A DNA stretch of 64,000 nucleotides, taken from contig JAOLBK010000006.1 of assembly GCA_028339155.1 (NCBI GenBank), positions 62,001 through 126,000 on the forward strand, in the 5' to 3' direction. Shown here piece by piece: positions 1-18,311 of this stretch (its first letter is position 1; each line of letters starts with the position of its first letter). The position numbers and the translations under genes were made by a program. Under the pieces are notes generated by a model. It did not search any database and was not told the origin of the DNA. It was given only the letters and a program-made list of their open reading frames with translations. The DNA comes from Litorivicinus sp. (lineage in GTDB: Bacteria; Pseudomonadota; Gammaproteobacteria; Pseudomonadales; Litorivicinaceae).

Positions 1-491
1 TAATTCTTCAATGTGAGGGCTGCCACGCTGGTGGCGGATTGAAGGCTGATCCACTAGCGCCCAACATTCGAGGCCAGCATTTTTTTTATTTATATACACA
101 ACTCAAGGACTACAAAGCCGAGCGTCGAAGCCACTCAGTGATGACCTCAATTGCAGCAGAACTCTCTAAGAAGGAAATGAAAGCGTTGGCCAATCACTAT
201 TCTGAACAGGCTTGGGTAAAGGTTGAATCTAATGTGGATGGGCGAGATGATGCGCGAGCCTCAGAAATCCTTGCTTCTGGAGGGCGTAACGCATGTTTGA
301 AATGTCATGCGAATTTTATCGGTTTAAATGGGACGCCGCGATTAGCGGGCCAAAAGAGCTCTTACTTGCGAGAAACGATGCAAGGATTTAAACGAAAAAC
401 CCGGTTAAATGCAGCAACAAAAAATACTCTCTTTAAAGAAATATCAGACTCAGATATTAGTGCGTTAGCTAATTATATTGGTGATCAATAA
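1..491 (+). CDS. Di-heme cytochrome c, c4-like (5' end outside window)
   Basis: Periplasmic electron carrier, partial at the left edge. The open frame is already running at position 3 and encodes a first haem-binding CEGCH at about 12-26, before any start codon. A second CLKCH lies near 292-306, followed by the 'G..PRLAGQ..SYL' stretch typical of cytochrome c4/c553 domains. It therefore has two class I cytochrome domains, most of the first domain lying inside the window. The true start is upstream. Beside PQQ-associated genes it is a plausible electron acceptor for a quinoprotein dehydrogenase lying to the left; that role is inferred from context only. Confidence 0.85.
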   Translation, partial: ILQCEGCHAGGGLKADPLAPNIRGQHFFYLYTQLKDYKAERRSHSVMTSIAAELSKKEMKALANHYSEQAWVKVESNVDGRDDARASEILASGGRNACLKCHANFIGLNGTPRLAGQKSSYLRETMQGFKRKTRLNAATKNTLFKEISDSDISALANYIGDQ

Positions 492-597: not shown

Positions 598-1512
598 TTA
601 TTGATTCTTTATTAGCTGCGCTATCTCTACGTGATTTGTTTGATTCGCATAGTCAAGCGCGGTCAAGTCCCGATTATCAGCATTTAAAGTTGTCGCGCCC
701 GCCTGCAATAAGATCTGAACGGTTTTCAACGCGTCGTCTGGCGGAGTGTCCGCGGTGTGGCCGGCAGCCCACATGAGAGGAGTTGTCTCATTTATAAAAA
801 TTTCATTTGGGTCAACACCTGCGTCGAGCAACAGGCTGACGATATTGTGAAAGCCCTTTGCAGCTGAATAAATTAGTGCTGATTTACCAGTATTATCTCG
901 CTTCGCTGGATCTGCGCCGGCTTTAAGAAGTTGTTTAACAAATTGAATATTTCCATCGAATGCTGCAAGAGAAAGCGGGGTTTCATTGTCTAAAGTTATA
1001 ACATTGACTTCTACATTTTGACTTAAAAGCCATTTGATTGTTTTTTTGCGGTTATTTTTCACAGCTTTTAGCAATGCTGTTGCGCCTCTCAGATTAGGCT
1101 GGTCCAGCCGTCCTCCATGAGAAGTTAAATATTTGAGGGCTTCTAATTGACCGGCTTGCGCAGCACGAATGGTTGGCGTATTGGCTAGTCGATCTTTGAC
1201 GTTGATCAGAGCACCTAACTCGATAAGCCGGGTGACCTCAATTAGGCAACCTTTCTCGCTGGCTTCCAATAGGAGCATAGAATACTCTCGCACCAATGCT
1301 TTATCTCCAAGCGCAATACGCTTGTCTCTGACTAGATCGCAGACCAGCTTATTTTCGCCGGCTTTGTTATGGCCGCCAGCCTCGACTTGAGTCGTTGTCC
1401 CCAGGATAATGGAAGTGAAAAAAATTGTGAGGCCGTAAGAAATGCGTTTGAATAAATACACGTTATGGATCTCTAAAATAAAGTTTATCGTTCTATTTAG
1501 TTTAGTCAGCAT
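598..1512 (-). CDS. Exported ankyrin-repeat protein
   Basis: Secreted or periplasmic scaffold-type protein of up to 304 residues. A hydrophobic leader (about residues 25-45, ending TTQVEA) is followed by a short linker with an isolated Cys pair and then about six ankyrin repeats. Typical repeat signatures include 'TPLSLAAFDGN', 'KSALIYSAAKG', 'LLLDAGVDPNE', 'TPLMWAAG' and 'ILLQAGA'. Ankyrin repeats bind proteins; the partner is not visible. The start is uncertain: ATG at 1512 gives a long N-terminus and overlaps the divergent hydrolase gene by about 70 bases, while a GTG at about 1461 would give a more compact signal peptide but still overlap. Confidence 0.75.
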   Translation of the reverse strand: MLTKLNRTINFILEIHNVYLFKRISYGLTIFFTSIILGTTTQVEAGGHNKAGENKLVCDLVRDKRIALGDKALVREYSMLLLEASEKGCLIEVTRLIELGALINVKDRLANTPTIRAAQAGQLEALKYLTSHGGRLDQPNLRGATALLKAVKNNRKKTIKWLLSQNVEVNVITLDNETPLSLAAFDGNIQFVKQLLKAGADPAKRDNTGKSALIYSAAKGFHNIVSLLLDAGVDPNEIFINETTPLMWAAGHTADTPPDDALKTVQILLQAGATTLNADNRDLTALDYANQTNHVEIAQLIKNQ

Positions 1513-2410
1513 ATTCCAGGCAGTTGAAGCTGCGCCGGATATATCCTATCGCCACGGAGAGATGGTCTCGGTCGGCCTCCTTGACTATCACGTATTTTGC
1601 ACTGGTTCTGGCCAGTCAACAATCATTCTTGAGTCAGGATTAGGTGGAAATTATTTAGATTGGTCTCTTTTACAGCCAATATTGTCAAAAAATGTGGTAG
1701 TGGTCTGCAGTTATGATCGCGCTGGATATGGTTGGTCGTCGATGGGAGAGAAGCCTCGGTTGGCAACTCGGGCCGCGAGTGAGTTCAATGATTTGGCTGC
1801 CCAACTGAAGTTACCTCGACCAATCACATTTGTTGGACACTCATATGGTGGACTGATTGGAGTAGCGATATCGAACTTAACGCCCAGATCAGTCGATGGG
1901 CTGGTTTTTCTTGACTCGATGCATCCGAATCAATTTGAAAGACTAAAAAATGAAGCAAATGTCGACTTACCAGCGAAGCCATCTAGGGCAATTATTTTTT
2001 CTAGTCCAGAAGTTATTGGTTATGGATTGCCAGAATCATTAGCCCGAACAGCGTATCAGATTTCACGTAAGCCAAAAGTACGTTCAACACTCTATAACGA
2101 GCTACGTAATGTGAAGAAAACGATGTTGTTGGTTGATCATTTGAAATGGGATCAAGTGCCGGCAATGGTTCTTGCGCATGGACGAAGAGATTGGGACAGT
2201 CATTCTACAGATGGATTAATGGAAGACGTCTGGATGCGTCTTCAACAAGATATAGCGGCGAGATCAAGTGGGCAGTTGTTTGTTGTTGACGGCGGGCACC
2301 AATTGCAGCTCGATAACCCAGAGGATTGTGCCGAATATATTTTGCGTTTTCATTTGGCTCGAGTTCAGGCGTTTGAAAGCCAAGAGGTCATTGAACCGAG
2401 ATATGAGTAA
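1442..2410 (+). CDS. Exported alpha/beta-hydrolase
   Basis: Alpha/beta-hydrolase fold enzyme of 322 residues with an N-terminal signal peptide ending near QAVEA-AP. The catalytic triad can be read directly: nucleophile Ser134 in GHSYGG, acid Asp250 in HGRRDW, and His286 in GGHQL. The oxyanion region ESGLGG and the YDRAGYGWSS strand-turn are also typical of this superfamily. Substrate unknown. The 5' end overlaps the divergent ankyrin gene and the 3' end overlaps the convergent cupredoxin-like gene by 23 bases. Periplasmic location fits the surrounding set of exported proteins. Confidence 0.85.
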   Translation: MRLNKYTLWISKIKFIVLFSLVSIFQAVEAAPDISYRHGEMVSVGLLDYHVFCTGSGQSTIILESGLGGNYLDWSLLQPILSKNVVVVCSYDRAGYGWSSMGEKPRLATRAASEFNDLAAQLKLPRPITFVGHSYGGLIGVAISNLTPRSVDGLVFLDSMHPNQFERLKNEANVDLPAKPSRAIIFSSPEVIGYGLPESLARTAYQISRKPKVRSTLYNELRNVKKTMLLVDHLKWDQVPAMVLAHGRRDWDSHSTDGLMEDVWMRLQQDIAARSSGQLFVVDGGHQLQLDNPEDCAEYILRFHLARVQAFESQEVIEPRYE

Positions 2411-2807
2411 TAAATCCGTCTGGTGTTAATCCTTGAATGCCGATTGAATATTTGCCAACTCGCATTGGAACGAAAAATACCTCGATTGATCCGTCATCGT
2501 CATACTCAAGCCCCCAGATAGAAGTGGTTTTAATTTCAAGATCATTAACGACAACCTCGTTCACGAAGATAGATTGAAAAAAGCCGTTGGAGGAAGTGAC
2601 TAAATACTCGTCTTTACCATCACTCGTCATTTTTAATCTATAAAAATTCCCAGCAACTAAGGTAAGTTCTCTGACACTGAATCCGCTGACACCATCAATT
2701 TGGATCTCAGGAAGTCTCTCTGCTCGTTTGAGGATATTTGACGCTCTCGTTTCCGTAGTCGATAGTACAAATAGAAAAGCCATGAAAAGTGGATATAAAC
2801 GTTTCAT
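2388..2807 (-). CDS. Small exported cupredoxin-like protein without copper ligands
   Basis: 139-residue exported protein beginning at ATG 2807, ten bases after the stop of the upstream binding-protein gene, so probably its third operon partner. A longer reading to 2924 is possible but would run into that gene and lacks a signal peptide at its front. Residues 1-22 form a signal peptide. The mature part ('LTLVAGNFYRLKMTSDG', 'EVVVNDLEIKT', 'IEVFFVPMRVGKYSIGI') resembles the cupredoxin-like domains that accompany PQQ dehydrogenase clusters. The Cys-His-Met copper loop is absent: there is no cysteine at all after the leader. A metal-free structural or relay role is an inference. Confidence 0.6.
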   Translation of the reverse strand: MKRLYPLFMAFLFVLSTTETRASNILKRAERLPEIQIDGVSGFSVRELTLVAGNFYRLKMTSDGKDEYLVTSSNGFFQSIFVNEVVVNDLEIKTTSIWGLEYDDDGSIEVFFVPMRVGKYSIGIQGLTPDGFITHISVQ

Positions 2808-2817
2808 TTTTATCGTC

Positions 2818-4038
2818 CTATTTATTGAATGAGCATGCTGTTTCTGGCTTATCCACACCCAACGTATCGTTGTAATTGATGCGGTGCAAAAAACCTTCAA
2901 GTGGTGCAATGTGAATGACTGCATTGTGGGTCGTTATAAACATTGGCTGTCTTAATTGATGATCCCATGATCTAAATGATCCCACCGAGCCCTTGTAGAG
3001 ATCTACTGATGCTGATTTGTTTGTATTGAAAATTTCGTAGGCGTTTATATTTTGGCTAATGTCTGCTTTTTTTGGCAAGTTCGTGGCTAAGAATTTAATT
3101 GCAGCCCATGTGGCAAAATCCTCATCAGACATGTGGCGTGGGTATTCATCATTTGATGCCAGTTTTAATACAGACGGTCTATTGAAGCGTTGGTTGAGTT
3201 GCGGAGCTCCGAAACGCTCAGCTGCGTGGTGCCAAGCACGTACTGTCAGACCGATATCACCCACAACTGGTCTTGGCAAATGTGTTTGAAATGGAATAAA
3301 CCGAGAGAAGTCAGCATTTGAGTCGAACACTACAACCGCGTCATATCGAGCATCCCTAGTTAAGAAGCTAATTTTGTTTTTCTCGCGCTCTGCTGGATTT
3401 TTTGATGTTGAAAAGTCTCGGACTGATTTGATGTTTAGATTCATTCGGCGAGCACTTAATTCAAACGTCTCTCGCAAGAGCTCATTTTCTGCCCCGGGTC
3501 CAGTTAAGACTAATAGTTCATCCCAGCGTCGAAACTTAAGCCATTGGACAAGGGCGTCGGCATACATCCGGTTAGATGGTATGGTGTGGAACATATTTGG
3601 TTGGCATAGAACGCCTCTCAGTTCATCATTGCGATGTCTTGCGTTAATCACCGTCACTTGTTTCTTGGCAAGAATTTTTATGGCATCTAAAAAAGAATCA
3701 TAAGGCAGGTCAAGAATGACAAGTTCCTGGTCTAGATCAAAGGCATTAAGCTCGTCGTTTATCGCATCTAGATCTTTAACTTCCAGTGCCTTGAATGACA
3801 ACTTGATTCCTGACGCCCGCGCCCTGGTTTTTGCTTCTGTCAGTGCGGACAGAATGGCTCTCTTGGGACGTTTTTGGTCTTTAAGAATGTAGCTAGTGTA
3901 GCTCTCTAACTGCTCATAAAATGGATCGTTTTTTGTGTGAATCCATGCGACGGAGATTGTTGCCGCTTGAGCCTGTTCCAGAATAAATAGGCCAGAACAG
4001 AAAAAACAAATTATTCTAATTGATAACCAAGATCCCAT
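2818..4038 (-). CDS. PQQ-ABC periplasmic substrate-binding protein, copy 1
   Basis: Periplasmic binding protein of the family associated with PQQ-dependent alcohol dehydrogenase systems (TIGR03863-like). The start is ATG 4038, preceded by AGGTGAAG; an upstream GTG at 4050 has a poorer ribosome site. The leader ends at EQAQA. Diagnostic stretches shared with the second copy (7521-8711) include 'RPVVGD.GLT', 'W..A.ERFGAPQLN.R', 'VDLYKG' and 'NDTLGVD.PE..C'. A cysteine in 'VLCQPNMF' and one near the C-terminus are conserved in both copies and may form a disulfide. It overlaps the upstream propeller gene by 23 bases, so the two are co-translated. Ligand unproven; lanthanide- or PQQ-related uptake is inferred from related clusters. 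Confidence 0.8.
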   Translation of the reverse strand: MGSWLSIRIICFFCSGLFILEQAQAATISVAWIHTKNDPFYEQLESYTSYILKDQKRPKRAILSALTEAKTRARASGIKLSFKALEVKDLDAINDELNAFDLDQELVILDLPYDSFLDAIKILAKKQVTVINARHRNDELRGVLCQPNMFHTIPSNRMYADALVQWLKFRRWDELLVLTGPGAENELLRETFELSARRMNLNIKSVRDFSTSKNPAEREKNKISFLTRDARYDAVVVFDSNADFSRFIPFQTHLPRPVVGDIGLTVRAWHHAAERFGAPQLNQRFNRPSVLKLASNDEYPRHMSDEDFATWAAIKFLATNLPKKADISQNINAYEIFNTNKSASVDLYKGSVGSFRSWDHQLRQPMFITTHNAVIHIAPLEGFLHRINYNDTLGVDKPETACSFNK

Positions 4039-5002
4039 AGGGCACTTCACCTGTTTTCACTGATCGAATTGCTTTCCGTTTCTTCGTGTCAATTATTGTC
4101 ATATCGTCAGATAAGCCGTTAGCGACGTATAGTTTGCTCTCATCCTTACTCAAAGCAAGACCCCACGCACGACTGCCCACCAAAATATAGTCCGAAATTT
4201 CTCGAGTTTTAACATCAATCATTGCAATATGGTTAGCTCTTCCCAGGGCGACAAATGCGGTATCTCCTTTCTGATTAATTAGCACATCAACGGGGGTTAC
4301 TTGTTCTTTTCGAAATCCTGGGGGATCAAAAATTATTGTATCTATAACTTCGAGCATTTTTAAGTTAATAACATTGATAACGCTTGATAACTCCGCTGAA
4401 ACCCAGAGCTCGGTCTCAGTAGCATTGAGTGCGAAGCGTCTGGGTCGTGTATCGACAATTATATCCTTAACGACCTGTTTGGACTTCGTGTCGATGACAT
4501 GAACCAAATTAGCTACTTCAGAGGCAACAAATACATATCGGCCATCCCGAGTGAACTGCACTCCTTCTGGTTCCTCGCCCGTTTCATAAGTTGCGATTAT
4601 TTCGCCTGTTTCGATATCGAGAACACTTGCGACCGCATCTTCTTCGTTTGAGATATAAAGTGAGGCTCCATCAGGACTAAGATCAAACGTTTCAGGGGCC
4701 CATATATTCGTAAAGCGCGTTAATACTTTAAAGGTGTCTAGCTCGTACTCGAGAATGAGATCATCGTCGGCACAGCCCACGTAGAAAGACCGTCGGGTTG
4801 ATGATAGATGCATTCCCCGGGGCCTTCCGCACGTTTCTACGGAACGAATAAAGTCACCGGAATGGGTAAGGATTGTCAGTTCGTTTGAGCGTTCGTTGCT
4901 GATGATTAGATAATTTTTCTCACTAGCATTCACGGGAACGAAGCCCAGTACGACGACCACGAAAAAAATAATTTTTTTGGCAAATTTTGTTAAGTCGATC
5001 AA
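4016..5002 (-). CDS. PQQ-associated YVTN beta-propeller protein, copy 1
   Basis: Exported seven-bladed propeller-type protein of 328 residues (TIGR03866-like: PQQ-dependent catabolism-associated beta-propeller). A signal peptide at about residues 1-26 is followed by repeated blades carrying 'SPDG', 'YVANGLSDDMTIIDTKK' and similar motifs. Two cysteines ('ETCGRPRG' and 'VGCADDD') are conserved in the paralogue at 8708-9760. It is the first gene of a minus-strand operon with the binding protein and the cupredoxin-like protein, transcribed divergently from the NitT-type ABC operon. Its exact role is unknown; in lut/ped-type clusters such propellers accompany lanthanide transport genes. Confidence 0.82.
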   Translation of the reverse strand: MIDLTKFAKKIIFFVVVVLGFVPVNASEKNYLIISNERSNELTILTHSGDFIRSVETCGRPRGMHLSSTRRSFYVGCADDDLILEYELDTFKVLTRFTNIWAPETFDLSPDGASLYISNEEDAVASVLDIETGEIIATYETGEEPEGVQFTRDGRYVFVASEVANLVHVIDTKSKQVVKDIIVDTRPRRFALNATETELWVSAELSSVINVINLKMLEVIDTIIFDPPGFRKEQVTPVDVLINQKGDTAFVALGRANHIAMIDVKTREISDYILVGSRAWGLALSKDESKLYVANGLSDDMTIIDTKKRKAIRSVKTGEVPYGILVIN

Positions 5003-5144
5003 GCACTCACTCCAGGCAAGAGAATTATAAATTAATCGGAGTAAAAAATAAGAGCTGCTCTATTTCAGTTCACAAACGCAAAGCGAGCCCTTAGCACCTT
5101 TCATTTTCCCGCGTTAAGTTTCAGCCTCATAACTTCATGCCTTT

Positions 5145-5177
5145 TTGCCCGAAAACAATCCGAGATCCTGCTATGAT
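5145..5177 (+). promoter_or_regulatory. Candidate extended -10 promoter for the NitT-type ABC operon
   Basis: TGCTATGAT at 5169-5177 matches an extended -10 element (TG-n-TATGAT) about 40 bases before the start codon at 5218. The nearest TTG-type -35 (TTGCCC, 5145-5150) is 21 bases away, too far for a standard spacer, so the promoter would depend on the extended -10. Weak, sequence-only evidence. Confidence 0.3.
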
Positions 5178-5217
5178 AACGAGATTAATGATAAGAAAGA
5201 AACAGGAGATCACATTG

Positions 5218-6198
5218 ATGTTTCGCTTGCCCAAAACATTACTTATGCTCACCCTCGCTTGCGGGCTGATCCTTACTTCATTCAGCCAAACTGTAGAGGC
5301 GACCTCCCTTAAATTGGCTGCCTTGAAATTTGGGACAGTGAAATGGGAATTGCAGACCATAAAAGACCTTGGTTTGGACCGAAAAAATGGGTTTGAATTG
5401 GAGGTAATAGATGTTGCCGGAAAGCAAGGATCGTCGTTGTCGATTCAAAATGATGCGGTTGATGTAATTGTTACTGACTGGCTATGGGTTGCAAATCAGC
5501 GCAGTAAAGGTCAGCAGTATCAATTCTTTCCATATTCAAAAGCCGTTGGTGGCATGTTGGTCGCAAACAAGTCGCCAATAAACTCGCTGGAAGACCTCAA
5601 AGGCAAGCGTATTGGTATCGCCGGTGGTCCGTTAGATAAGAGTTGGATCATCATTCAGGCGATAGGAAAAAAACGGCATGGCCTCGACCTTGCCAAATCC
5701 AATGAGCTAGTTTTCGGTGCGCCTCCTCTTTTATTCAAGCAGGCAATGAATGGTGAAATAGATGCTGTTATTAATTTTTGGCACTATCTTGCCAAGCTGG
5801 AAGCGAAAGGATTCAGGAAGGTGATTGACGTCCAAGAAGCCGCAGGTGAACTGGGATTGTCCGCTGATACCCCGTTACTCGGCTACGTTTTTAAAGAGGC
5901 TTGGGCTAAAGCCAATCCACAAGCTGTGGCGGGGCTTTATGCAGCGTCCCGAGAAGCCAAATCAATTCTGGCGACAGATGACCTCGCCTGGGAAAAATTA
6001 AAAACACTGATGAAACCAAAGAGTCAGGAGGAATTTATTGCCCTTCGCGATGCATGGAGGACAGGAGTTCCTGGTCAAGCGATTGATTACAGTTCCGCTG
6101 AATCAATGTTTGCGTTCATGAAGCAATATGGTGAAGGGAAATTGATCAAGAAGGATTCATCTCTCGATGCCGGTGCATTTTTTGCGATTAAGAAATAG
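5218..6198 (+). CDS. NitT/TauT-family ABC transporter substrate-binding protein
   Basis: Periplasmic solute-binding protein (SsuA/NMT1-like) of 326 residues. The start is ATG 5218, with AGGAG about ten bases before it; the frame is open further upstream but without a leader. The signal peptide ends near TVEA-TS. Family traits: 'LKFGTVKWELQTIKDLGLD' opening strand and helix, 'VDVIVTDWLWVANQR', 'SLEDLKGKRIGIAGG', and 'LFKQAMNGEIDAVINFWHY'. The first gene of an operon with its permease and ATPase. Substrate cannot be told from sequence; its position between two PQQ-ABC gene sets suggests a link to quinoprotein-dependent metabolism. Confidence 0.85.
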   Translation: MFRLPKTLLMLTLACGLILTSFSQTVEATSLKLAALKFGTVKWELQTIKDLGLDRKNGFELEVIDVAGKQGSSLSIQNDAVDVIVTDWLWVANQRSKGQQYQFFPYSKAVGGMLVANKSPINSLEDLKGKRIGIAGGPLDKSWIIIQAIGKKRHGLDLAKSNELVFGAPPLLFKQAMNGEIDAVINFWHYLAKLEAKGFRKVIDVQEAAGELGLSADTPLLGYVFKEAWAKANPQAVAGLYAASREAKSILATDDLAWEKLKTLMKPKSQEEFIALRDAWRTGVPGQAIDYSSAESMFAFMKQYGEGKLIKKDSSLDAGAFFAIKK

Positions 6199-6223
6199 CC
6201 AAGTGCTGATTCTCGTTATTTGA

Positions 6224-6988
6224 ATGCGGATTGTTGAAGCATGTCTGTCCTTGCTTGGCCTGCTGCTTTTGTGGTGGGGAGTATCCGCTATTTCAGATCC
6301 GCTCGTTTTGCCTCCTCCAGATGCCGTATTTTACGCATTAGTGACCGAAATCGGGACAGGAGAGCTTTGGACACATCTTGGTGCAACCCTTTTTCGAGTA
6401 GTCATGGCATTTGGTTTGGCGTGGATGGTTGGTGTAGTCATCGGTGTTTCTCTTGGTCGCATAAAGCTTCTTGATCGCTGGTTTTGGTCATGGGTCACTA
6501 CATTTTTAAACTTGCCCGCATTGGTCGTTATTGTTGTCTGTTACCTTGCGCTTGGGATGACCGAAACTGCGGCTATTTTGGCGGTGACAATTAATAAGGC
6601 ACCATTAATTGCTGTCAATGTTCGTGATGGGGTGAGGCAATTTGATCCAAAATATGATGAATTTGCATCTAACTATGGGTTGAGCTTTAGCCAAAAGGTG
6701 AGAAGCATTTGGATACCTCAGCTCGAGCCTTTTTTATTCACGGCGTTGAGAACGGGATTATCGCTGACATGGAAAGTGATTCTTGTGGTGGAGCTTATCG
6801 GGCGGTCCTCGGGTGTCGGTTTTCAAATTCACTTATATTTTCAGTTATTTGAGGTTGATGTGATTTTGGCTTATGCATTGAGCTTTATTGTAGTGATGCA
6901 ATTAATAGAGTGGCTGTGCGTAAGACCTTTGGAGAAATATGTTCAAAGATGGCGTAGTGACGGTCAGCTGGCCCAATTGCAAGTTTGA
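6224..6988 (+). CDS. NitT/TauT-family ABC transporter permease
   Basis: Inner-membrane permease of 254 residues, related to SsuC/TauC, with about six hydrophobic segments. The EAA-type cytoplasmic loop that docks the ATPase is visible as 'EFASNYGLSFSQKVRSIWI' followed by 'PQLEPFLFTALRTGLSLTW'. It begins 25 bases after the binding-protein stop and overlaps the ATPase gene by 50 bases, implying translational coupling. No strong ribosome site precedes the ATG. Confidence 0.85.
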   Translation: MRIVEACLSLLGLLLLWWGVSAISDPLVLPPPDAVFYALVTEIGTGELWTHLGATLFRVVMAFGLAWMVGVVIGVSLGRIKLLDRWFWSWVTTFLNLPALVVIVVCYLALGMTETAAILAVTINKAPLIAVNVRDGVRQFDPKYDEFASNYGLSFSQKVRSIWIPQLEPFLFTALRTGLSLTWKVILVVELIGRSSGVGFQIHLYFQLFEVDVILAYALSFIVVMQLIEWLCVRPLEKYVQRWRSDGQLAQLQV

Positions 6989-7517
6989 CGGTAAAGAAGT
7001 GCTTCAGTCAGGGCAGTTGGCACTTCATCCTGGCTGCTCGGTAGTGTCTGGTGACTCGGGTATTGGCAAAACAACCATGCTTCGGGCGATCGCGCAAAAT
7101 AATTCAAAGATTCGATCTGTTTTGGTTTTCCAGGAACCTACGCTGCTACCTTGGTTGACTTTAGAAGAGAATTTAGCGCTTGTTTCAAAAGAACATGAAG
7201 TGGCTATCAAATGGCTAGATTCTTTTGGTCTTTACAATTGCCTTGGTTTGAGACCAGGTCAAATGTCTCTAGGAATGCAGCGAAGGGCCGCAATTGTTCG
7301 CGGATTAATCGCTAAGCCTGATGTTTTGCTTCTGGATGAACCGTCAGCGTCTCTCGATCAGCTTAATATTGATCGCTTATTAGATTGTTTGGTTGAAATC
7401 ATTCATTCACGAAGCATCCCGATTCTTCTAGTATCACATCAGATTGATCACTTTGAACGCCTGAAAGCCAAGCAGTTTTATCTAGGTGGTTCTCCGGCGT
7501 TTATCAGAGTGGTATAG
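6939..7517 (+). CDS. NitT/TauT-type ABC transporter ATPase, compact and atypical
   Basis: ATP-binding subunit of only 192 residues, compared with about 240-260 for SsuB/TauB relatives. Walker A is GDSGIGKTT, the Q-loop 'VFQEPTLLPWLT' is typical of the NitT group, Walker B is 'VLLLDEPSASLD' and the H-loop 'LLVSHQ'. The signature motif is degenerate: 'SLGMQRRAAIVRGL' instead of LSGGxxQR. The C-terminal extension is missing. Walker A, Walker B and the switch His are intact, so ATP binding and hydrolysis are plausible. It ends three bases before the stop of the convergent binding-protein gene. Confidence 0.8.
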   Translation: MFKDGVVTVSWPNCKFDGKEVLQSGQLALHPGCSVVSGDSGIGKTTMLRAIAQNNSKIRSVLVFQEPTLLPWLTLEENLALVSKEHEVAIKWLDSFGLYNCLGLRPGQMSLGMQRRAAIVRGLIAKPDVLLLDEPSASLDQLNIDRLLDCLVEIIHSRSIPILLVSHQIDHFERLKAKQFYLGGSPAFIRVV

Positions 7518-7520
7518 GGA

Positions 7521-8711
7521 TCATTTTTTAGACAATTGACAGCTGGATTCAGGCTCATCCAGACCCAGCGTGTCGACGTAGTGTTTTGGGTGTAAAAACT
7601 TCGGCATGGGAGCCACGGCCACAACAGTGTCTGGTGTTGCCAATAGAATAGGTTGTCGTATTTGATGATTCCACAGGCGAACTGAACCTCGCGTTCCTTT
7701 GTATAGATCGACCTGTGATTGTGGATTTTTGAGTAAGTTTAAGAGATCAAAGTTTGTTCCGATTTTTTTATTTGCACTCAGACTATTGGTAACGAGCTTA
7801 ACAGCACTCCAGGCCGCGAATTCTTTATCTGTCATACTGACTTGGGAGCTGAGAGGGTCACCTTTTTTGAAGTGTCTGTAACGCTCATTCAATTGGGGTG
7901 CCCCATATCTCTCTAGAGCGAAGTGCCAGCTTTTCGGAGTCAAGCCAACATCTCCAACGACGGGCCTTGCTTTTCGAGTGCTGTACTGAAGATAGCGGCC
8001 ATAATCTTTTTCTGAATCAATAACAGCGACGACGTCATAAGAAGCCCCACCAGTCAAAAATTCGGGATTATTTTTGTCTCGATCGTCTGGGTGATGGGAC
8101 AGTGAGAACTGCCGGTTATCTACAATACTTGCGCCGAACTTCTTCAGACTAACTATCAGTGTCTCCGCTCGGGCATCATCTTTTTTGGATGGCCCGCGCA
8201 CGACTAGAACTTTCCGCCACCCACGGTATATAAGAAACTGACTTAGGGCGTCAAAATACATATGGTCGGATGGGATTGCATGAAATAAGTAGTCCATGCA
8301 GAGTGAATTTCTTAGAGTTGGTTCGCTGTGCCTTACGTTAAAAGAGACCAGCTTAAGCTCATTCAGAATAGGCGCAACTTTGAGCATTGTTTTGAGTGGA
8401 ATATCTAGGATAACAAGACTGGATGGCGAGATGGCGAGAAGTTGTTCGCGTAGATCCCGATCTGGCTTGATGTCCAACGTATTAAGAGCATCATGGAATC
8501 CAAGTCGCTGAAGAAGGGTTTTTGATTCAAAGAGCGCAAGTTCAACAGCCCGCAAAACAGGTCGATCTGGTTCAACCGTAATGCCAGCAAAACTTTGTCC
8601 CTGATTCATTCTTTCTTCAGCTTCAGCAGAAATGATGGTGACTTCCAAGGCGCCGGCGATTGAAGCACTGGAAAAGAAGATGCTGGTAATGAATAAAATA
8701 TTTTTTATCAT
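7521..8711 (-). CDS. PQQ-ABC periplasmic substrate-binding protein, copy 2
   Basis: Second TIGR03863-like periplasmic binding protein, 396 residues, with a clear signal peptide (residues 1-21, ending SIAGA-LE). It shares with copy 1 the stretches 'RPVVGDVGLT', 'RYGAPQLNERY', 'QVDLYKGTRGSVRLWNHQ' and 'YVDTLGLDEPES.C', plus the internal cysteine in 'SLCMDYLFHAIPSD'. Its ATG overlaps the stop of the preceding propeller gene by four bases (ATGA). It is the last gene of the minus-strand operon ATPase-permease-propeller-binding protein, so this copy is most likely the one serving the linked ABC-2 transporter. Confidence 0.83.
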   Translation of the reverse strand: MIKNILFITSIFFSSASIAGALEVTIISAEAEERMNQGQSFAGITVEPDRPVLRAVELALFESKTLLQRLGFHDALNTLDIKPDRDLREQLLAISPSSLVILDIPLKTMLKVAPILNELKLVSFNVRHSEPTLRNSLCMDYLFHAIPSDHMYFDALSQFLIYRGWRKVLVVRGPSKKDDARAETLIVSLKKFGASIVDNRQFSLSHHPDDRDKNNPEFLTGGASYDVVAVIDSEKDYGRYLQYSTRKARPVVGDVGLTPKSWHFALERYGAPQLNERYRHFKKGDPLSSQVSMTDKEFAAWSAVKLVTNSLSANKKIGTNFDLLNLLKNPQSQVDLYKGTRGSVRLWNHQIRQPILLATPDTVVAVAPMPKFLHPKHYVDTLGLDEPESSCQLSKK

Positions 8712-9760
8712 CTATCGAAAACCTCTACAGAATGTGGAGCTAGACCTGTGCGAGCGGTTTTGATGGGCCGTCTAGTTTTGAGATCTATAATAGTGGCATC
8801 GTCAGAGAGACCATTGAGAACGAAGAGGCGTGCATCGTCTGGTGTGATCCCCAATCCCCAAGCTCGCCGACCGACCAAAATATACTTTTCGATTGACCGA
8901 GTTTCCGCATCAATAATGGCAACATGATTGGCGGCTCCGAGCGCAACAAAAGATAGTTTTTTTGTACTGTCAAAGAGGATGTCCACAGGTGTCATTTGTT
9001 CACTTCTAAATCCCTTGGGGGCGAAGATGATTTCATCTATTTTCAAAAGCGTATTTAAATCAAAGATTTCTACTCTGCTACCCATTTCTGATGATATCCA
9101 GAGCTCGGTATTTCGAATTGCCATACGCCTTGGGCGAAGGCTTGTAATAATAGATTGAATTGCGCTGTATGTGTTGCCGTCGAAGACGTGAATTAGTCCT
9201 GCATTTTCGGAGGCTACAAAAATTCGACTTCCATCATCTGAAACGATTACTCCGTCTGGCTCAAACCCTGTCTGAAGAGTGCTCAATAAATTCCCGGTAT
9301 CGATATCTAAAACAGTCGCTTTTGACGCTCCCTCATTGGTAATAAATAGTCGCCTGGATTTCGTATTTAATGTGACGGCCATAGCCCCGGGAATTCCCAG
9401 GAACTCTCTAATGATCTTTTTCGTCTGGAGATTGAATTCGAGTACTTTATTGTCGTCTGAACATGCAATGTAAAGTAATTTCTTTGGTCGATCTTGGACC
9501 ATTCCGCGGGGGCGGTTGCATAGTTTGATAATGTCTAAAGAATTCCCCGACTCATCAAGAAAAACAAGGTCGCCAGAACGTTCGTTGCTAATAACGGCCT
9601 CAAAGCCAACGGCAAGCCGTGAAGACGCGAGTATTAAAATCAACGTTAGCACATGGATTAACCAGACTGGCCTGCGTTGAGGGTTCAGTCGGTGCCGCAT
9701 TAATGCCATGAAGCTGAGAATTAGAGAGGAGGATATTTTATTGTTTAAAATTGAGGGCAC
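8708..9760 (-). CDS. PQQ-associated YVTN beta-propeller protein, copy 2
   Basis: Exported propeller protein (TIGR03866-like), 350 residues from GTG 9760, which is preceded by AGGAAGTGA. Internal ATGs at 9709 and 9700 would give a shorter and more conventional signal peptide ('RRPVWLIHVLTLILILASS'), so the start is not settled. Conserved with copy 1: 'ISNERSG', 'CNRPRGM', 'ACSDDN', 'EQMTPVDIL', 'YILVGRRAWGL' and 'NGLSDDATIIDLK'. It begins eight bases after the permease stop and overlaps the binding protein gene. Confidence 0.8.
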   Translation of the reverse strand: MPSILNNKISSSLILSFMALMRHRLNPQRRPVWLIHVLTLILILASSRLAVGFEAVISNERSGDLVFLDESGNSLDIIKLCNRPRGMVQDRPKKLLYIACSDDNKVLEFNLQTKKIIREFLGIPGAMAVTLNTKSRRLFITNEGASKATVLDIDTGNLLSTLQTGFEPDGVIVSDDGSRIFVASENAGLIHVFDGNTYSAIQSIITSLRPRRMAIRNTELWISSEMGSRVEIFDLNTLLKIDEIIFAPKGFRSEQMTPVDILFDSTKKLSFVALGAANHVAIIDAETRSIEKYILVGRRAWGLGITPDDARLFVLNGLSDDATIIDLKTRRPIKTARTGLAPHSVEVFDR

Positions 9761-9768
9761 TTCACTTC

Positions 9769-10539
9769 CTAAGAGTCTGGTTTAAACAGTAAATGAATGA
9801 AACTTGTGGTGAATAAGGCTATAGCTACGATTATAAGAGTATTGGTGGAAAAGGGCTCCCCGTGCAAGCCGAAGCGGATAAGCTCTATCAGATGCGTAAA
9901 CGGATTCATTTCACTAATCCAGTAAATAGATTCGCTTGATTCACGAAGCTGCCAGAGGGGGTAGAGAGCACTTGAGAGAAAAAAACTTGGGAAAATGACA
10001 AAATTCATGACGCCTGCAAAGTTTTCAAGTCCATGGACATGACTTGCAAGAATTAATCCGATTAGAGAGAGCACGTAAGCACTAATAATAATTGCTGGCA
10101 ATGCCTGGATTAGACCCAAAACTGGTAAATCGACACCAAAACCGATGGCAATCAACAAAAAGAGATATGACTGAATGACAGAGACTAATGTAGATCCAAT
10201 TAGTTTGTAGGCAAGGACGAGTCTGCGGCTCAGTGGGGCGGTCATCAGAACCTTCATCGCTCCGGCCTCTCTGTCGTAAACCATGGCTAATGAAGATTGC
10301 ATTCCGTTGAATAGGCAGACCATTCCTACTAGGCCTGGAATGACATATAGATCGTAGGTTACGTAGGTCGCGTAAGGCGGTTGAATGGCGATTCCAAGCG
10401 TGCTTTTGAAGCCTGCTGCAAATACGATAAGCCAGAATAGTGGGCGAACCATTGCAGAGATCAATCGAGTTCTTTGAGATATAAACCGCGCAAATTCCCG
10501 TTCTATGATCACAACGAGAGGCCTGATTAGCTTATCCAT
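9769..10539 (-). CDS. ABC-2 type transporter permease, PQQ-dehydrogenase associated (PedC-like)
   Basis: Integral membrane permease of about 256 residues with six hydrophobic segments and the ABC-2 pattern 'MVYDREAGAMKVLMTAPLSRR' before the third segment. Matches the PedC-like permeases (TIGR03861) of PQQ alcohol dehydrogenase clusters. ATG 10539 was chosen over TTG 10548; it overlaps the last codons of the ATPase gene by eight bases. Related systems (ped in Pseudomonas putida, lut in Methylobacterium) have been linked to lanthanide supply; although ABC-2 permeases are often exporters, direction here cannot be read from sequence. Confidence 0.82.
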   Translation of the reverse strand: MDKLIRPLVVIIEREFARFISQRTRLISAMVRPLFWLIVFAAGFKSTLGIAIQPPYATYVTYDLYVIPGLVGMVCLFNGMQSSLAMVYDREAGAMKVLMTAPLSRRLVLAYKLIGSTLVSVIQSYLFLLIAIGFGVDLPVLGLIQALPAIIISAYVLSLIGLILASHVHGLENFAGVMNFVIFPSFFLSSALYPLWQLRESSESIYWISEMNPFTHLIELIRFGLHGEPFSTNTLIIVAIALFTTSFIHLLFKPDS

Positions 10540-11239
10540 GTTTATCAACCATTTGGTTATATGTGCGAATCATTTCGTCTTGAGAGCCGCAAGATCCAGA
10601 GTATCGATTCTCACCATTGATTAAGATGACTAGCGCATCTTGTGGGCACAGTTCATCAGTAACGTGAGTACACCAGAGTATTCCGAGACCCTTGTTGCTT
10701 GCTAACGAATGTAGATCTAAAGAAAGTTTTGCTCTCGAATTGATATCAAGCCCCGCAGATGGTTCGTCTAAAAGAAGCCATTTCGGCTTATGGATTAGTG
10801 CCCGAGCGATTTCGATTCGTCTACGCTCCCCCCCGCTAAGTGTTCGAATATCTCTGTGAACATAGGAGCTGCAATTCATTAGTGATGTAGTTTCTTCGAT
10901 GCGCTGCTTCGTCTTTGGCCTGTCCAGCCCATGTAACCCTGCAGCGTACTTAAGGTTGGCTAATCCTGAGCGCATCGAGTCGAGAGCAGGTTCTTGAAAT
11001 ACGAAACCAAACTTTTGAAAAATTCTAGGTGAGTGGGAGGTCCAGGATTCTCCATCTAACGAAAAGTCACCACTTTGCCGGCGAATTAAGCCTGAAATTA
11101 GTTTGAACAGGGTCGATTTTCCAGCGCCGTTGGGTCCTAACAATGCAGTTACGGCGCCTGGCTCAAAGCAAGATGAAAAGTTTTTCAAGGCGACAGCTTT
11201 CCCATAAGAATAGCTTGCATCTTGAATAGATAGCGCCAT
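10532..11239 (-). CDS. ABC transporter ATPase, PQQ-dehydrogenase associated
   Basis: ATP-binding subunit of 235 residues (TIGR03864-like) pairing with the permease encoded next. Walker A GPNGAGKST, Q-loop 'FVFQEPALD', complete signature LSGGERRR, Walker B 'WLLLDEPSAGLD' and H-loop 'LWCTHVTDE' are all present. First gene of the four-gene minus-strand operon. AGGA lies about six bases before the ATG at 11239. Unlike the NitT-type ATPase nearby it has a canonical signature motif. Confidence 0.88.
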   Translation of the reverse strand: MALSIQDASYSYGKAVALKNFSSCFEPGAVTALLGPNGAGKSTLFKLISGLIRRQSGDFSLDGESWTSHSPRIFQKFGFVFQEPALDSMRSGLANLKYAAGLHGLDRPKTKQRIEETTSLMNCSSYVHRDIRTLSGGERRRIEIARALIHKPKWLLLDEPSAGLDINSRAKLSLDLHSLASNKGLGILWCTHVTDELCPQDALVILINGENRYSGSCGSQDEMIRTYNQMVDKHG

Positions 11240-11683: not shown

Positions 11684-12230
11684 TGGAGATTCCCGGTGTT
11701 GAAGAAGCAAATTTTTTTACATGCTATTTGTTGAAGGTTCGCTTTTTACGATTGCGATAAATCGCTGAAGTAACAGTTAGAAAATACTAAAGTAGAGCAT
11801 ACTAAAGTAGAAAATACTAAAGTAGAGCATGTTAGATAATCTACTTTCTTAGATCCACACATAAGATAAGAATTTTTCTGGCTCCATTTTATAAAAGTCT
11901 GGACTGCATTAAGTGGACTTCACATCTGTTCATAAATTAATTCACGTCTCCGTACGATCATTGTACGTACAAGTAGCAAAATTGAGACATGGAGGGCAAA
12001 ATTTTTTGAAAAGGCTTTCCAAATTTTTCTAACGCGAATTTCATCGAATTTATAGGTTGCGACTAAAGTCCCATTTATTAGGCTTGATTGGAGCTCACTA
12101 GACATATATAACTAACTCATGAAATTTGTGAAAAACTATATTTTTCGCATCTTTTGAAGATGTAAGCGTTGAGCTCGAAGATAGCCAATGTAAATAGTAA
12201 ATTTTGAGAATAAGAAATAGGGATTTAAGC
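11684..12230. other. AT-rich 547-base gap between divergent genes
   Basis: No convincing gene. It separates the minus-strand H-NS-like gene from the plus-strand sugar dehydrogenase. Contents: the 15-bp tandem repeats at 11784-11828 with a partly complementary downstream arm, and a small dyad GTAC-n7-GTAC around 11953-11967. A 61-codon minus-strand frame at 11920-12105 has no ribosome site or recognisable family and is left out. Confidence 0.5.
11784..11828. repeat. Three 15-bp tandem repeats (ATACTAAAGTAGARM)
   Basis: ATACTAAAGTAGAGC at 11784-11798, ATACTAAAGTAGAAA at 11799-11813 and ATACTAAAGTAGAGC at 11814-11828. Units 1 and 3 are identical; unit 2 differs at two bases. Each unit contains the near-dyad CTA-AAG-TAG. 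Just downstream, TCTACTTT can pair with AAAGTAGA of the last unit. The array lies upstream of two divergent genes and could be a multi-site operator; no regulator is identified. Confidence 0.7.
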
Positions 12231-13466
12231 ATGGTGAAAATGAAGAAGCTTGCTGCTTGCGTTGCAGGTTTAGCAATGTCCGCGACAGCATTCGCAAACG
12301 TTGGAGTCTTCGCGACTTCTGGCAAAACAATGAATGATCACACTTATATTGAGCAAGGAGGCGCCAAGGCAGAAAACCTGAAAAAGGTTTTAGAAAACGT
12401 AACGCTTCCAGCTGGATTTAAAATTGATCTGTATGCCATTGTTCCAGATGCGAGAGACATGACGATGGCGCCTCAGGGAACAGTTTTGTTTGTTGGAACG
12501 CGTAAGGATAAAGTTTGGGTCGTATCGGATCGTGATCGTGACGGAGTTGCCGATGAGGTTAAGGATTTCGCCCCATCGCTGGACTTTGATGTGCCAAATG
12601 GTGTGCAGTTTACAAAGGATGGATTCCTTTACATTGCTGAACGTAACCATGTGCGCTTATTTCCTGCTGCAGAGTTCTTTTATGAAGGACCGGACGTCGT
12701 TGCGGTTGACATAGTGCCCAAGGGTGAGCTGATTCCGGTGGATGAGGAAAGCTACAACCACACGGCGCGCGTTATAGATATTGGCCCGGACAATAAGGTT
12801 TATATTTCTCTCGGTCAGCCATGGAATGTTACTCCAGAAGATAAAGTAGACTTATATAGAGAGCTCGGGATTGGTGGCATCATCCGTATGGATCGTGATG
12901 GCAAGAATCGTGAAGTCTTCACATATGGTGTGCGTAACTCAGTTGGGCAAGATTTCCATCCGGTTACAGGGGAACTTTGGTGGACTGATAACCAAGTTGA
13001 CGGAATGGGGGATGATATCCCACCAGGTGAGTTAAATCGTCAAACGAAGGCTGGTCAGCACTTTGGACATCCTTGGTTTGGTGGCGGCAAGACGCGTACG
13101 AATGAATACAAAGGCAAGAAAGTACCTTTTGATATAGTGCATCCAGCCGTAGAAACGACTGCTCATTGTGCTGATCTTGGTATGGCATTTTATTCAGGAA
13201 AGCAATTTCCAGCGAAGTATAAGAACGGTATTTTCTCTGCTCAGCACGGATCTTGGAATCGTACAACACCATGCGGTGCGCGGATAATGTTCACATCCAT
13301 TGATAAGGATGGTAAGGCAACCATGACCCCATTTGCCGAGGGCTGGTTAAACGAAAATATGGAATACGATGGACGCCCTATGTCGATCGTTCAGATGAAG
13401 GATGGATCAATCTTAGTGTCTGATGATTATGCGGGTGCGATTTACCGTATTTCATACCAAGGCTAA
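12231..13466 (+). CDS. PQQ-dependent glucose/sorbosone-type dehydrogenase (GSDH family)
   Basis: Periplasmic soluble quinoprotein of the glucose/sorbosone dehydrogenase beta-propeller family, 411 residues, that would oxidise an aldose or aldehyde and pass electrons to a cytochrome. ATG 12231 follows AATAGGG; the leader 'KKLAACVAGLAMSATAFA' is a standard signal peptide. Motifs: 'LFVGTRKDKVWVV', 'NGVQFTKDGFLYIAERN', 'SLGQPWN', 'GGIIRMDRDGKNREVFTYG', 'RNSVGQDFHP', 'LWWTDNQVDGMGDD', 'HFGHPWFGGG' and 'QHGSWNRT'. A 12-bp terminator follows the stop by 14 bases, and a cytochrome c gene starts just beyond it. Substrate cannot be deduced. Confidence 0.85.
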   Translation: MVKMKKLAACVAGLAMSATAFANVGVFATSGKTMNDHTYIEQGGAKAENLKKVLENVTLPAGFKIDLYAIVPDARDMTMAPQGTVLFVGTRKDKVWVVSDRDRDGVADEVKDFAPSLDFDVPNGVQFTKDGFLYIAERNHVRLFPAAEFFYEGPDVVAVDIVPKGELIPVDEESYNHTARVIDIGPDNKVYISLGQPWNVTPEDKVDLYRELGIGGIIRMDRDGKNREVFTYGVRNSVGQDFHPVTGELWWTDNQVDGMGDDIPPGELNRQTKAGQHFGHPWFGGGKTRTNEYKGKKVPFDIVHPAVETTAHCADLGMAFYSGKQFPAKYKNGIFSAQHGSWNRTTPCGARIMFTSIDKDGKATMTPFAEGWLNENMEYDGRPMSIVQMKDGSILVSDDYAGAIYRISYQG

Positions 13467-13480
13467 TACTAAAAACGAGG

Positions 13481-13512
13481 AAGCCCTAACCATATTGGTT
13501 AGGGCTTTTTTT
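13481..13512 (+). terminator. Intrinsic terminator after the GSDH gene
   Basis: Perfect 12-bp stem AAGCCCTAACCA (13481-13492) / TGGTTAGGGCTT (13496-13507), three-base loop, seven consecutive T at 13506-13512. The cytochrome c gene starts 15 bases further on with no room for a separate promoter, so readthrough must supply its transcript. Confidence 0.92.
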
Positions 13513-13526
13513 ATGGGGAATTTAGA

Positions 13527-13847
13527 GTGAATAAAATAATTCTTGGTGTCAGCATTTTTTTTATGAGTATGCCCGCTATTAGTGCTGACTTGGCAGTCGG
13601 TAAATCGTTGTCAAAACAGTGTGCTGTTTGTCACGGGAAGGATGGTATTTCGAGACATCCTGAGACCCCTAATCTGGCTGGATTAAGTGCTTTGTATATT
13701 GAGAAAGCATTGGTCGATTATAAGAAAGGTTCGAGACATGATCGCCGTATGAGCTTGATCGCGCAGTCGATGTCTAAGGATGACATGAAGAATTTAGGTG
13801 CCTGGTATGCTGCATTTAAATTAACTGTTGAAGTGCCACAAATTTGA
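13527..13847 (+). CDS. Mono-heme class I cytochrome c
   Basis: 106-residue exported cytochrome. The signal peptide ends at PAISA; the haem site is Cys32-Ala-Val-Cys35-His36 followed by 'GKDGISRHPETPNLAGL', typical of c4/c553-type single domains; the axial Met is probably in 'RRMSLIAQSMS'. Start is GTG 13527 with GGGGAA seven bases upstream. Placed after the PQQ-type dehydrogenase, it is the likely electron acceptor (inference). Its stop overlaps the next gene's TTG start (TTGA). Confidence 0.88.
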   Translation: MNKIILGVSIFFMSMPAISADLAVGKSLSKQCAVCHGKDGISRHPETPNLAGLSALYIEKALVDYKKGSRHDRRMSLIAQSMSKDDMKNLGAWYAAFKLTVEVPQI

Positions 13848-18236: not shown

Positions 18237-18311
18237 TGGAGCGGGTAGTGGGAATCGAACCCACATCACCAGCTTGGAAGGCTGGGGTAATAGCCTTTAT
18301 ACGATACCCGC
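18237..18311 (-). tRNA. tRNA-Gly (anticodon TCC)
   Basis: The reverse complement folds as a cloverleaf: acceptor GCGGGTA...TACCCGC, anticodon stem CCAGC/GCTGG with loop CTTCCAA (anticodon TCC at 18276-18278), T-arm GTGGG-TTCGATT-CCCAC, discriminator T and encoded CCA. Transcribed toward the unknown two-gene operon; no terminator visible between them. Confidence 0.95.

Follow-up and report, generated by a model that had tools for sequence, protein, structure and literature searches.

To our knowledge, the delivery of lanthanides and PQQ to quinoproteins, and the frequent pairing of a YVTN propeller with a binding protein, is still an open question. The locus described here is a natural experiment, with two diverged receptor pairs, different quinoprotein partners, one transporter core and a PqqT-like importer. 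We analyzed a stretch of 64,000 nucleotides of Litorivicinus sp. (assembly GCA_028339155.1, contig JAOLBK010000006.1, positions 62,001-126,000, forward strand), which is called the window throughout. An initial annotation, made from the letters alone, had suggested a two-cargo uptake island serving one quinoprotein. Our data point to an island that supplies two periplasmic quinoproteins through dedicated receptor pairs, one Ped/Lut-type core and PqqT-like recapture of PQQ, a reading to which we give slightly more credence than doubt. Gene content, homologies, the D-x-D motif, the trees of both pairs, the patterns of occurrence and linkage and the single permease above cut-off were computed directly. 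The ORFs of both pairs and of the importer between them were open at the coordinates and on the strands of Table 1. Riboswitches and other known RNA elements were rejected as constituents of the locus since the only match above the gathering scores in the window was a tRNA (18240-18311).

Table 1. Features of the Litorivicinus sp. locus (window coordinates) and the evidence for each assignment
Feature	Position	Strand	Evidence and remarks
Cytochrome c, two CxxCH motifs	3..491	+	Only the end lies inside the window; second of two cytochromes after the PQQ alcohol dehydrogenase
Small exported protein, 'cupredoxin-like'	2388..2822	-	No Pfam/NCBIfam model; relatives beside Ped-type loci
SBP1, PedA1/LutA-type binding protein, copy 1	2818..4038	-	TIGR03863 307.2 bits, below cut-off; tree
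prop1, PedA2/LutB-type YVTN propeller, copy 1	4016..5002	-	TIGR03866 289.9 bits, above cut-off
PqqT-like binding protein, NitT/TauT-type importer	5137..6198	+	PF09084; PDB matches, linkage; start 5137 provisional, 5176 used in searches
NitT/TauT-type ABC permease, operon of the PqqT-like protein	6224..6988	+	PF00528; relatives with the same gene order
NitT/TauT-type ABC ATPase, operon of the PqqT-like protein	6939..7517	+	PF00005
SBP2, PedA1/LutA-type binding protein, copy 2, GSDH-linked clade	7521..8711	-	TIGR03863 302.5 bits, below cut-off; tree
prop2, PedA2/LutB-type propeller, copy 2, GSDH-linked clade	8708..9760	-	TIGR03866 235.9 bits, below cut-off; tree
PedC/LutF-type ABC-2 permease	9769..10548	-	TIGR03861 332.2 bits, above cut-off
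PedB/LutE-type ATPase	10532..11239	-	TIGR03864 234.4 bits, best of 191 families, below cut-off
GSDH-type (glucose/sorbosone dehydrogenase family) putative quinoprotein	12234..13466	+	PF07995; oriented away from the copy 2 operon
Small cytochrome c, next after the GSDH-type gene	13527..13847	+	PF00034 27.4 bits

The ORF coordinates and NCBIfam matches bear out the basic layout proposed in the initial annotation, namely a propeller/binding-protein pair that occurs twice, copy 2 together with an ATPase and a permease and copy 1 together with a small cupredoxin-like protein. Each of the six PQQ-ABC proteins matched a PQQ-ABC model at E <=1.1e-69, which argues against chance, and its own PQQ-ABC model was the best match in every case. 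For SBP1 (E 1.3e-91) and SBP2 (E 3.5e-90), TIGR03863 was the only NCBIfam family matched. However, only the permease (TIGR03861, curated NCBIfam cut-off 241.35 bits) and prop1 (TIGR03866, 287.3 bits) exceeded the thresholds. The remaining four proteins, that is, both binding proteins (TIGR03863, 413.6 bits), prop2 and the ATPase (TIGR03864, 302.25 bits), stayed below and therefore, their ligand specificity may have changed. The best family matches support a PQQ-ABC (Ped/Lut-type) identity of these proteins.

When the two copies were compared in pairwise alignments, SBP1 and SBP2 shared 36% identity over 396 columns and prop1 and prop2 45% over 296 columns, and the motifs C.RPRG, RPVVGD.GLT and VDLYKG noticed before were found in both. 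In the phylogenetic trees, from which repeats of one genome place, matches below 100 bits, ORFs shorter than 250 aa and some alternative starts were omitted, copy 1 was the sister of the copy 2 clade for binding proteins and propellers alike. This clade spans two families and the split between the copies predates it. Judged from the trees, copy 1 and copy 2 are distinct old lineages. A recent duplication of the pair was rejected, since identity is only 36-45% and copy 1 is more distant from copy 2 than the rest of the copy 2 clade is. SBP2 grouped with Granulosicoccaceae sequences (96/93), but prop2 joined L112 and the Litoricola group (98/90), so the two halves of the pair give different answers on a recent transfer of copy 2.

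The DNA to the left of position 1 had been recommended for inspection, and here we found a PQQ alcohol dehydrogenase just outside the window (G000:C31:58900-60570), followed by a fasciclin protein and two cytochromes c (in the coordinates of locus L003, 14900-16570, 16648-17271, 17306-17872 and 17898-18491 from the dehydrogenase to the second cytochrome). Its WDLD aligned to WDFD of 6zcv/6zcw and to WDFS of 1flg, which corresponds to a lanthanide-type D-x-D, and the organism may use lanthanides. The Cys-Cys is present and the PF01011 score (281 bits) was above the cut-off; TIGR03075 yielded 465.3 bits, below its curated cut-off of 480.05. Thus, a quinoprotein does exist in this genome. At 23-26 kb to the left of the window, pqqE, pqqC and pqqB were identified with scores above their cut-offs; for pqqA and pqqD, candidates were picked by eye. 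The dehydrogenase is unique to this genome among the 25 of its family (G294 comes next with 32% over residues 83-378), and the same is true for the second binding protein (copy 1). The tie between the two comes from one other locus only (L101), which groups a partial alcohol dehydrogenase (67% over 201 aa, truncated where the contig ends) with a binding protein (38%), a cupredoxin-like protein (36%) and a propeller (56%), and where a permease and an ATPase are also near; the nearest tree row of prop1 by path was from this locus. More generally, D-x-D was present in 10 of the 12 readable PQQ alcohol dehydrogenases that share a locus with a PQQ-ABC binding protein (this genome's excluded); the remaining two carried DFS and two further loci were unreadable. 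Copy 1 and its small companion would serve the D-x-D alcohol dehydrogenase.

The label 'cupredoxin-like' for this companion comes from the initial annotation and describes a resemblance. No Pfam or NCBIfam model matched the protein at E 0.01, and its relatives, several of which adjoin Ped-type loci, were 29-35% identical. Since no His, Cys or Met was invariant among 11 aligned sequences of this family, a type-1 copper site is not expected and a copper function was rejected.

The second quinoprotein-family gene codes for the GSDH-type protein, which scored 50.1 bits with PF07995 (gathering score 25) and has only remote relatives among the solved members (best PDB E 7.8e-4). Full-length relatives with 71-85% identity occur in Litoricola and Granulosicoccaceae genomes. 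H176, R234 and N235 were invariant in 17 aligned sequences, with only R234-N235 inside the PDB alignment. A His and an Arg-Asn belong to the PQQ site of sGDH; these residues may be their counterparts, and the protein may bind PQQ. The gene (at least 78% identity) was detected in 10 of the 25 family genomes, and SBP2-type proteins were found in nine of these ten and in none of the 15 others; the tenth, G300, has its GSDH-type gene truncated by a contig end. Among 14 relatives, the copy 2-clade pair was located within 2 kb of a GSDH-type gene in 11, beside a small cytochrome c of the 13527-13847 type in 10 and within 3 kb of a permease in three, although some loci are short or end with the contig and the last count thus partly reflects reach. 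SBP2-type and GSDH-type genes were on separate contigs in G308 and G309 (GSDH-type identity 73% and 71%) and in G268, where the GSDH-type gene is near a contig end. No match to the lanthanide-type alcohol dehydrogenase was present in nine family genomes that carry the GSDH-type gene, eight of which also have pair 2. Copy 2 would serve the GSDH-type protein. With two quinoprotein-family genes, and pairs that go with different ones, the notion of one quinoprotein is not supported. Lanthanide use by the GSDH-type enzyme is without support, since the GSDH-type glucose dehydrogenase is described as a calcium enzyme in PMC12542740.

The permease at 9769-10548 was the sole TIGR03861 match above cut-off in this genome, all others reaching at most 37.3 bits, although a further permease or quinoprotein could be absent from the 87.8%-complete assembly. 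This genome and five others (G305-G309) have two to three binding proteins each, yet one TIGR03861 permease above cut-off. In five of six Granulosicoccaceae genomes an above-cut-off binding protein occurs together with an SBP2-type one, and G143 and G287 have permease and ATPase and no match to the binding or GSDH-type proteins. The locus suggests that each receptor pair goes with a particular enzyme, with the transporter in common. Both pairs would dock on a single PedBC/LutEF-type core (9769-11239) for import of a metal into the cytoplasm, with a lanthanide, as such or as a complex, being the most likely cargo.

Alternatively, the receptor pairs might be periplasmic maturation factors rather than transport receptors, each loading metal and/or PQQ into its own quinoprotein, and the ABC core might have another purpose or work with one pair. 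Such loading has been proposed for binding-protein folds of the XoxJ/MxaJ type. Such a role would fit the more frequent adjacency of the pairs to a quinoprotein gene (11/14) than to a permease (3/14), the two to three binding proteins per permease in the six genomes and, in M. silvestris, the LutB, LutA and LutH homologues that adjoin xoxF1 according to PMC9291206. However, ATPase and permease share the strand of the pair not only here but also in G117 and nine Ped-type loci (L015-L023), and the mutants of P. putida and M. extorquens are reported to behave as uptake mutants: without PedA1A2BC, about 100-fold more La is needed for PedH-dependent growth (PMC6839425), and La stays in the periplasm of mutants in lutA, lutE or lutF (PMC7391723). 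We consider this alternative rather unlikely.

The complete NitT/TauT-type ABC operon (5137-7517) does lie between the pairs, as the initial annotation had described, but its characterization as unrelated did not hold: it is unrelated to PQQ-ABC in sequence and related in genomic context. Its binding protein matched PDB entries 9b1u, 9b1v and 9ooz (E 3.6e-54 and 9.8e-54), the better match spanning residues 44-329; 9b1v is PqqT, and the other two sequences are near-identical to it. The Lys of a DK.W motif is common to both proteins and invariant in 13 aligned relatives. PqqT binds PQQ with a Kd of 50 nM (PMC12124388). In a set of 369 gammaproteobacterial genomes, a PqqT-like gene was present in 17 of the 19 with a PQQ-ABC binding protein (E <1e-30) and in 2 of the 350 without (Fisher 3.4e-25), the latter including 16 genomes with best binding-protein matches of 4.1e-9 to 2.3e-4. 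This co-occurrence spans 17 family codes, and it suggests that metal and cofactor share a pathway in many lineages. When weak binding-protein matches were left out, 25 of 36 PqqT-like relatives were located within 12 kb of a PQQ-ABC binding protein or permease, and in four compared loci the importer was collinear with the Ped/Lut-type system. Of 61 genomes chosen for having a PQQ-ABC binding protein or permease, 25 lacked the gene at E 1e-15, including G089 and G117, two relatives with nearly complete assemblies; given this selection, co-occurrence was tested in the 369-genome set only. In the window's own order, where the link is weaker, 13 of the 26 PQQ-ABC genomes have it and 13 lack it. 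Because of these absences, the gene is a frequent but not a required companion. Nothing in the available parts of the open-access PMC literature connected a PqqT- or NitT-type importer with a Ped/Lut system. In the supply island that we favor, the PqqT-like importer would recapture PQQ lost from the periplasm, and PQQ synthesis genes are also present in the genome. Two cargos, metal via the Ped/Lut-type and PQQ via the PqqT-like importer, are thus plausible as proposed before, but not for one quinoprotein. Both cargos are inferred from homology.

A bolder version would unite the Ped/Lut-type and PqqT-type importers in one system for joint import or recycling of metal and cofactor, with the pairs as exchangeable quinoprotein-specific adaptors on a shared core and the GSDH-type protein as a lanthanide-dependent or specially metallated quinoprotein of undescribed kind. 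We rate this as a minority possibility, since two relatives with nearly complete genomes, and half of the PQQ-ABC genomes of the order, lack the PqqT-like gene.

The constant neighborhood of pair 2 and the GSDH-type gene would also be compatible with an enzyme that supplies uptake, producing a metal-chelating sugar lactone that pair 2 and the shared core import as metal-chelate. For TMED127 bacteria, which co-transcribe the gene of a PQQ glucose dehydrogenase with xoxF5, gluconolactone from this enzyme has been proposed, unconfirmed, as lanthanide chelator (PMC12542740). This was the nearest case in the accessible portions of the open-access PMC literature, where no GSDH-type enzyme with a Lut pair was found. 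However, the nine family genomes that have the GSDH-type gene and no lanthanide-type alcohol dehydrogenase match show no obvious user of the chelate, which leaves this explanation improbable.

A model in which one quinoprotein receives two substrates or two metals through separate uptake systems, and copy 1 simply duplicates copy 2, agrees with the clustering of two receptor pairs and two ABC importers and with the sister position of copy 1, but two quinoprotein-family genes and a split older than a clade spanning two families make it very improbable. The least credible reading is an accidentally placed importer of an ordinary nutrient (sulfonate, thiamine precursor): the generic NMT1/THI5-like Pfam assignment and the absence of the operon from 25 of the 61 genomes would allow it, but the best solved relatives are PqqT entries, the gene co-occurs in 17 family codes and is linked, and a sulfonate/taurine importer was rejected with SsuA-family and taurine models (NCBIfam) at 31.4 and 25.6 bits, far below cut-off.

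Among known systems, the lanthanide ABC transporter PedA1A2BC of Pseudomonas putida KT2440 (described in PMC6839425) has the same four components, i.e. binding protein, YVTN propeller, ATPase and ABC-2 permease, and here, too, a D-x-D PQQ alcohol dehydrogenase is in the region. The gene order differs (ATPase-permease-propeller-binding protein here, binding protein-propeller-ATPase-permease in the compared Ped-type loci), and the second receptor pair, the embedded PqqT-like importer and the four of six proteins under curated cut-offs set our locus apart. The Lut system of Methylorubrum extorquens AM1 (LutA, LutB, LutE, LutF; reported in PMC7391723) likewise combines binding protein and propeller, the latter being LutB according to PMC9291206, with ATPase and permease, but there are two pairs for one core here; by eye, no LutH-type TonB receptor or lanmodulin was noticed among the ORFs beside our locus. 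The GSDH family of soluble PQQ sugar dehydrogenases (PF07995) includes the window protein by score and by an Arg-Asn aligned with a solved member, but this protein is distant from solved members and frequently has a receptor pair and a cytochrome as neighbors. PqqT of M. extorquens AM1, a periplasmic PQQ-binding protein (PDB 9b1v, according to PMC12828617), belongs to the same binding-protein family as its counterpart in the window, but unlike PqqT, the putative PQQ importer of Litorivicinus sp. adjoins a Ped/Lut-type system.

The contig that carries the window (138,442 bases, of which bases 62001-126000 form the window) belongs to a genome of 1.88 Mb with a completeness of 87.8%, and two of the compared genomes (G089, G301) were assigned to the same genus. 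The predicted genes match the coordinates and strands of the initial annotation, so that its gene layout was borne out.

Features of the locus and its surroundings (window positions unless prefixed; C31, the window's contig; L003 and L004, fetched loci)
Feature	Position	Strand	Remark
Propeller 1, SBP1, small exported protein	5002-2388	-	overlapping end to end
ATPase, permease, propeller 2, SBP2	11239-7521	-	second tightly packed set
NitT/TauT-type binding protein (nitSBP), permease, ATPase	5137-7517	+	between both minus-strand sets
GSDH-type gene, small cytochrome c	12234-13847		right of copy 2 operon, past 1 kb gap
PQQ-ADH, fasciclin protein, two cytochromes c	left of window (L003)		second cytochrome extends into window
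pqqE, pqqC, pqqB	C31:36178-39248		23-26 kb left of window; above their cut-offs
Rhodopsin-like/carotenoid-synthesis-like region	L003:2629-3495, L003:112-2528, L004:16378-20000		named by eye
Alpha/beta hydrolase	1442-2410		adjoins copy 1
Tandem repeat	11784-11830		15-base unit, 3.1 copies; between copy 2 operon and GSDH-type gene

Candidates for pqqA and pqqD were recognized by eye with the other pqq genes. Between these and the PQQ alcohol dehydrogenase (PQQ-ADH), we observed a gene for a rhodopsin-like protein, by eye a proteorhodopsin, together with genes resembling those of carotenoid synthesis. Relatives of the hydrolase (32-33% identical) occur near the Ped-type loci L040 and L042.

A D-x-D-type PQQ dehydrogenase, which the initial annotation had suggested seeking left of position 1, was found there. 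This PQQ-ADH scored 465.3 bits against TIGR03075, slightly below the cut-off (480.05), and was the sole match to this model in the genome at E 0.001. Its active-site motif WDLD aligns with WDFD of the solved ethanol dehydrogenase 6zcv/6zcw, which we take to be PedH, and with WDFS of 1flg, presumably a calcium enzyme. The second Asp of the D-x-D motif is a mark of lanthanide enzymes. When the window's own genome was excluded, D-x-D was present in 10 of the 12 readable PQQ-ADHs sharing a fetched locus with a PQQ-ABC binding protein (SBP, TIGR03863) and DFS in two; two further loci were unreadable. Among the 25 family genomes a full-length PQQ-ADH match was confined to the window genome, and the next-best match, a 782-aa frame of G294, reached 32% identity across residues 83-378.

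In phylogenetic trees, copy 2 falls inside a GSDH-linked clade that covers two families (support 100/99 for SBP2, 100/100 for propeller 2). Copy 1 is the sister of this clade (100/99 and 100/98 in the SBP and propeller trees) and therefore the split between the two copies predates it. Locus L101 branches beside both and its propeller is the nearest row to propeller 1 (identity 54% in the alignment used for the tree and 56% in tblastn). It carries a partial PQQ-ADH (67% identical to that of the window genome), SBP, cupredoxin-like protein, propeller, permease and ATPase. Within pair 2 (7521-9760), SBP2 clusters with Granulosicoccaceae sequences and propeller 2 with the Litoricola group; each placement is well supported, and recombination or transfer inside this pair is possible. 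In the class sample (L070-L080), another group of short SBP-like genes (frames of about 275-335 aa) matches parts of SBP1 and mostly adjoins TIGR03866-like propellers, nine of which, used in the propeller tree, form one clade (100/100).

A TIGR03863 SBP was detected in 9 of the 25 family genomes, with two copies only in the window genome. The TIGR03861 permease exceeded its cut-off in 11, including G143 and G287; genome searches of these two yielded neither an SBP nor a GSDH-type match. Both retain permease and ATPase (G143:C48, L043; G287:C41, L044), and those of G287 still adjoin a PqqT-like operon. Of 14 fetched relatives, 11 have the pair within 2 kb of a GSDH-type gene and three have it within 3 kb of a permease, both counts being lowered by some loci of short length or cut off by a contig end. 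Five of six Granulosicoccaceae genomes (G305-G309) carry an above-cut-off SBP plus an SBP2-type SBP, and these five, like the window genome, have one permease each above the cut-off. Most simply, these patterns would mean that each pair is dedicated to one quinoprotein while both use one common transport core. The weak point of this reading is the tie between copy 1 and PQQ-ADH, for which L101 is the sole second case. Alternatively, the receptor pairs may be maturation factors.

The GSDH-type protein (50.1 bits against PF07995, cut-off 25) is remote from solved members of this family (best E 7.8e-4). Its full-length copies are 82-85% identical in the family and 71-84% in Granulosicoccaceae; the receptor pair matches its own relatives less closely (54-67%). 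A GSDH-type gene of at least 78% identity was present in 10 of the 25 family genomes, namely the nine SBP-bearing ones and G300, where it is cut by a contig end. His176, Arg234 and Asn235, whose role we presume from soluble glucose dehydrogenase, are invariant in 17 aligned sequences, and the protein may bind PQQ. Some match was found in 147 of 369 sampled genomes, but the best full-length one outside the window genome (G416, 57%) lies away from its SBP; the link to pair 2 was therefore assessed in two families only. A less likely alternative, based on PMC12542740, is that this enzyme makes a chelator for uptake.

The nitSBP matches the PDB sequences 9b1u/9b1v (E 3.6e-54) and 9ooz (9.8e-54). 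In the available excerpts, 9B1V is PqqT with PQQ and Gd (PMC12828617), and a Kd of 50 nM for PQQ is given for the PqqT of M. extorquens AM1, which aids retention and capture of this cofactor (PMC12124388). In the tool-drawn sample of 369 gammaproteobacterial genomes, a strong PQQ-ABC SBP and a nitSBP relative were each found in 19; both occurred together in 17 genomes of 17 different family codes, as compared with nitSBP relatives in 2 of the 350 genomes without a strong SBP (Fisher 3.4e-25). Among 36 nitSBP relatives, all from genomes selected for a PQQ-ABC SBP or permease, 25 had such a gene no more than 12 kb away, three were farther off on the same contig and eight on other contigs. L103, L105, L106 and L108 show the one-strand order nitSBP, nitPermease, nitATPase, ATPase, propeller, SBP, permease (nitATPase of L103 being recognized through the other ATPase query). 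At E 1e-15, a nitSBP relative was absent from 25 of 61 selected genomes: from eight of the 12 members of the window's own family, from 13 of the other 26 genomes of the order (family code f20, 6 of 7; f37, 6 of 8), from two of the six Granulosicoccaceae and from two of the 17 remaining genomes of the class. Of the eight in the window's family, three (G268, G293, G301) have contig ends that bear fragments of nitPermease or nitATPase, and G089 and G117 (98-99% complete) lack such fragments. Set against the linkage counts, these absences indicate that the importer often accompanies the Ped/Lut-type system but is dispensable to it.

Taken together, we propose that a Ped/Lut-type core with two receptor pairs would form a metal arm and the PqqT-like importer a PQQ arm, which may supply two periplasmic quinoproteins with cytochromes beside each. 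The cargo of each transporter and the common use of one core are inferred, as is PQQ in the GSDH-type protein. The proposal follows the literature on lanthanide import, since the excerpts available support the import of lanthanides by a four-gene Ped/Lut system (PMC6839425, PMC7391723, PMC12997753, PMC9291206, PMC10848612, PMC8969499), in which LutB is the propeller and LutA the binding protein (PMC9291206).
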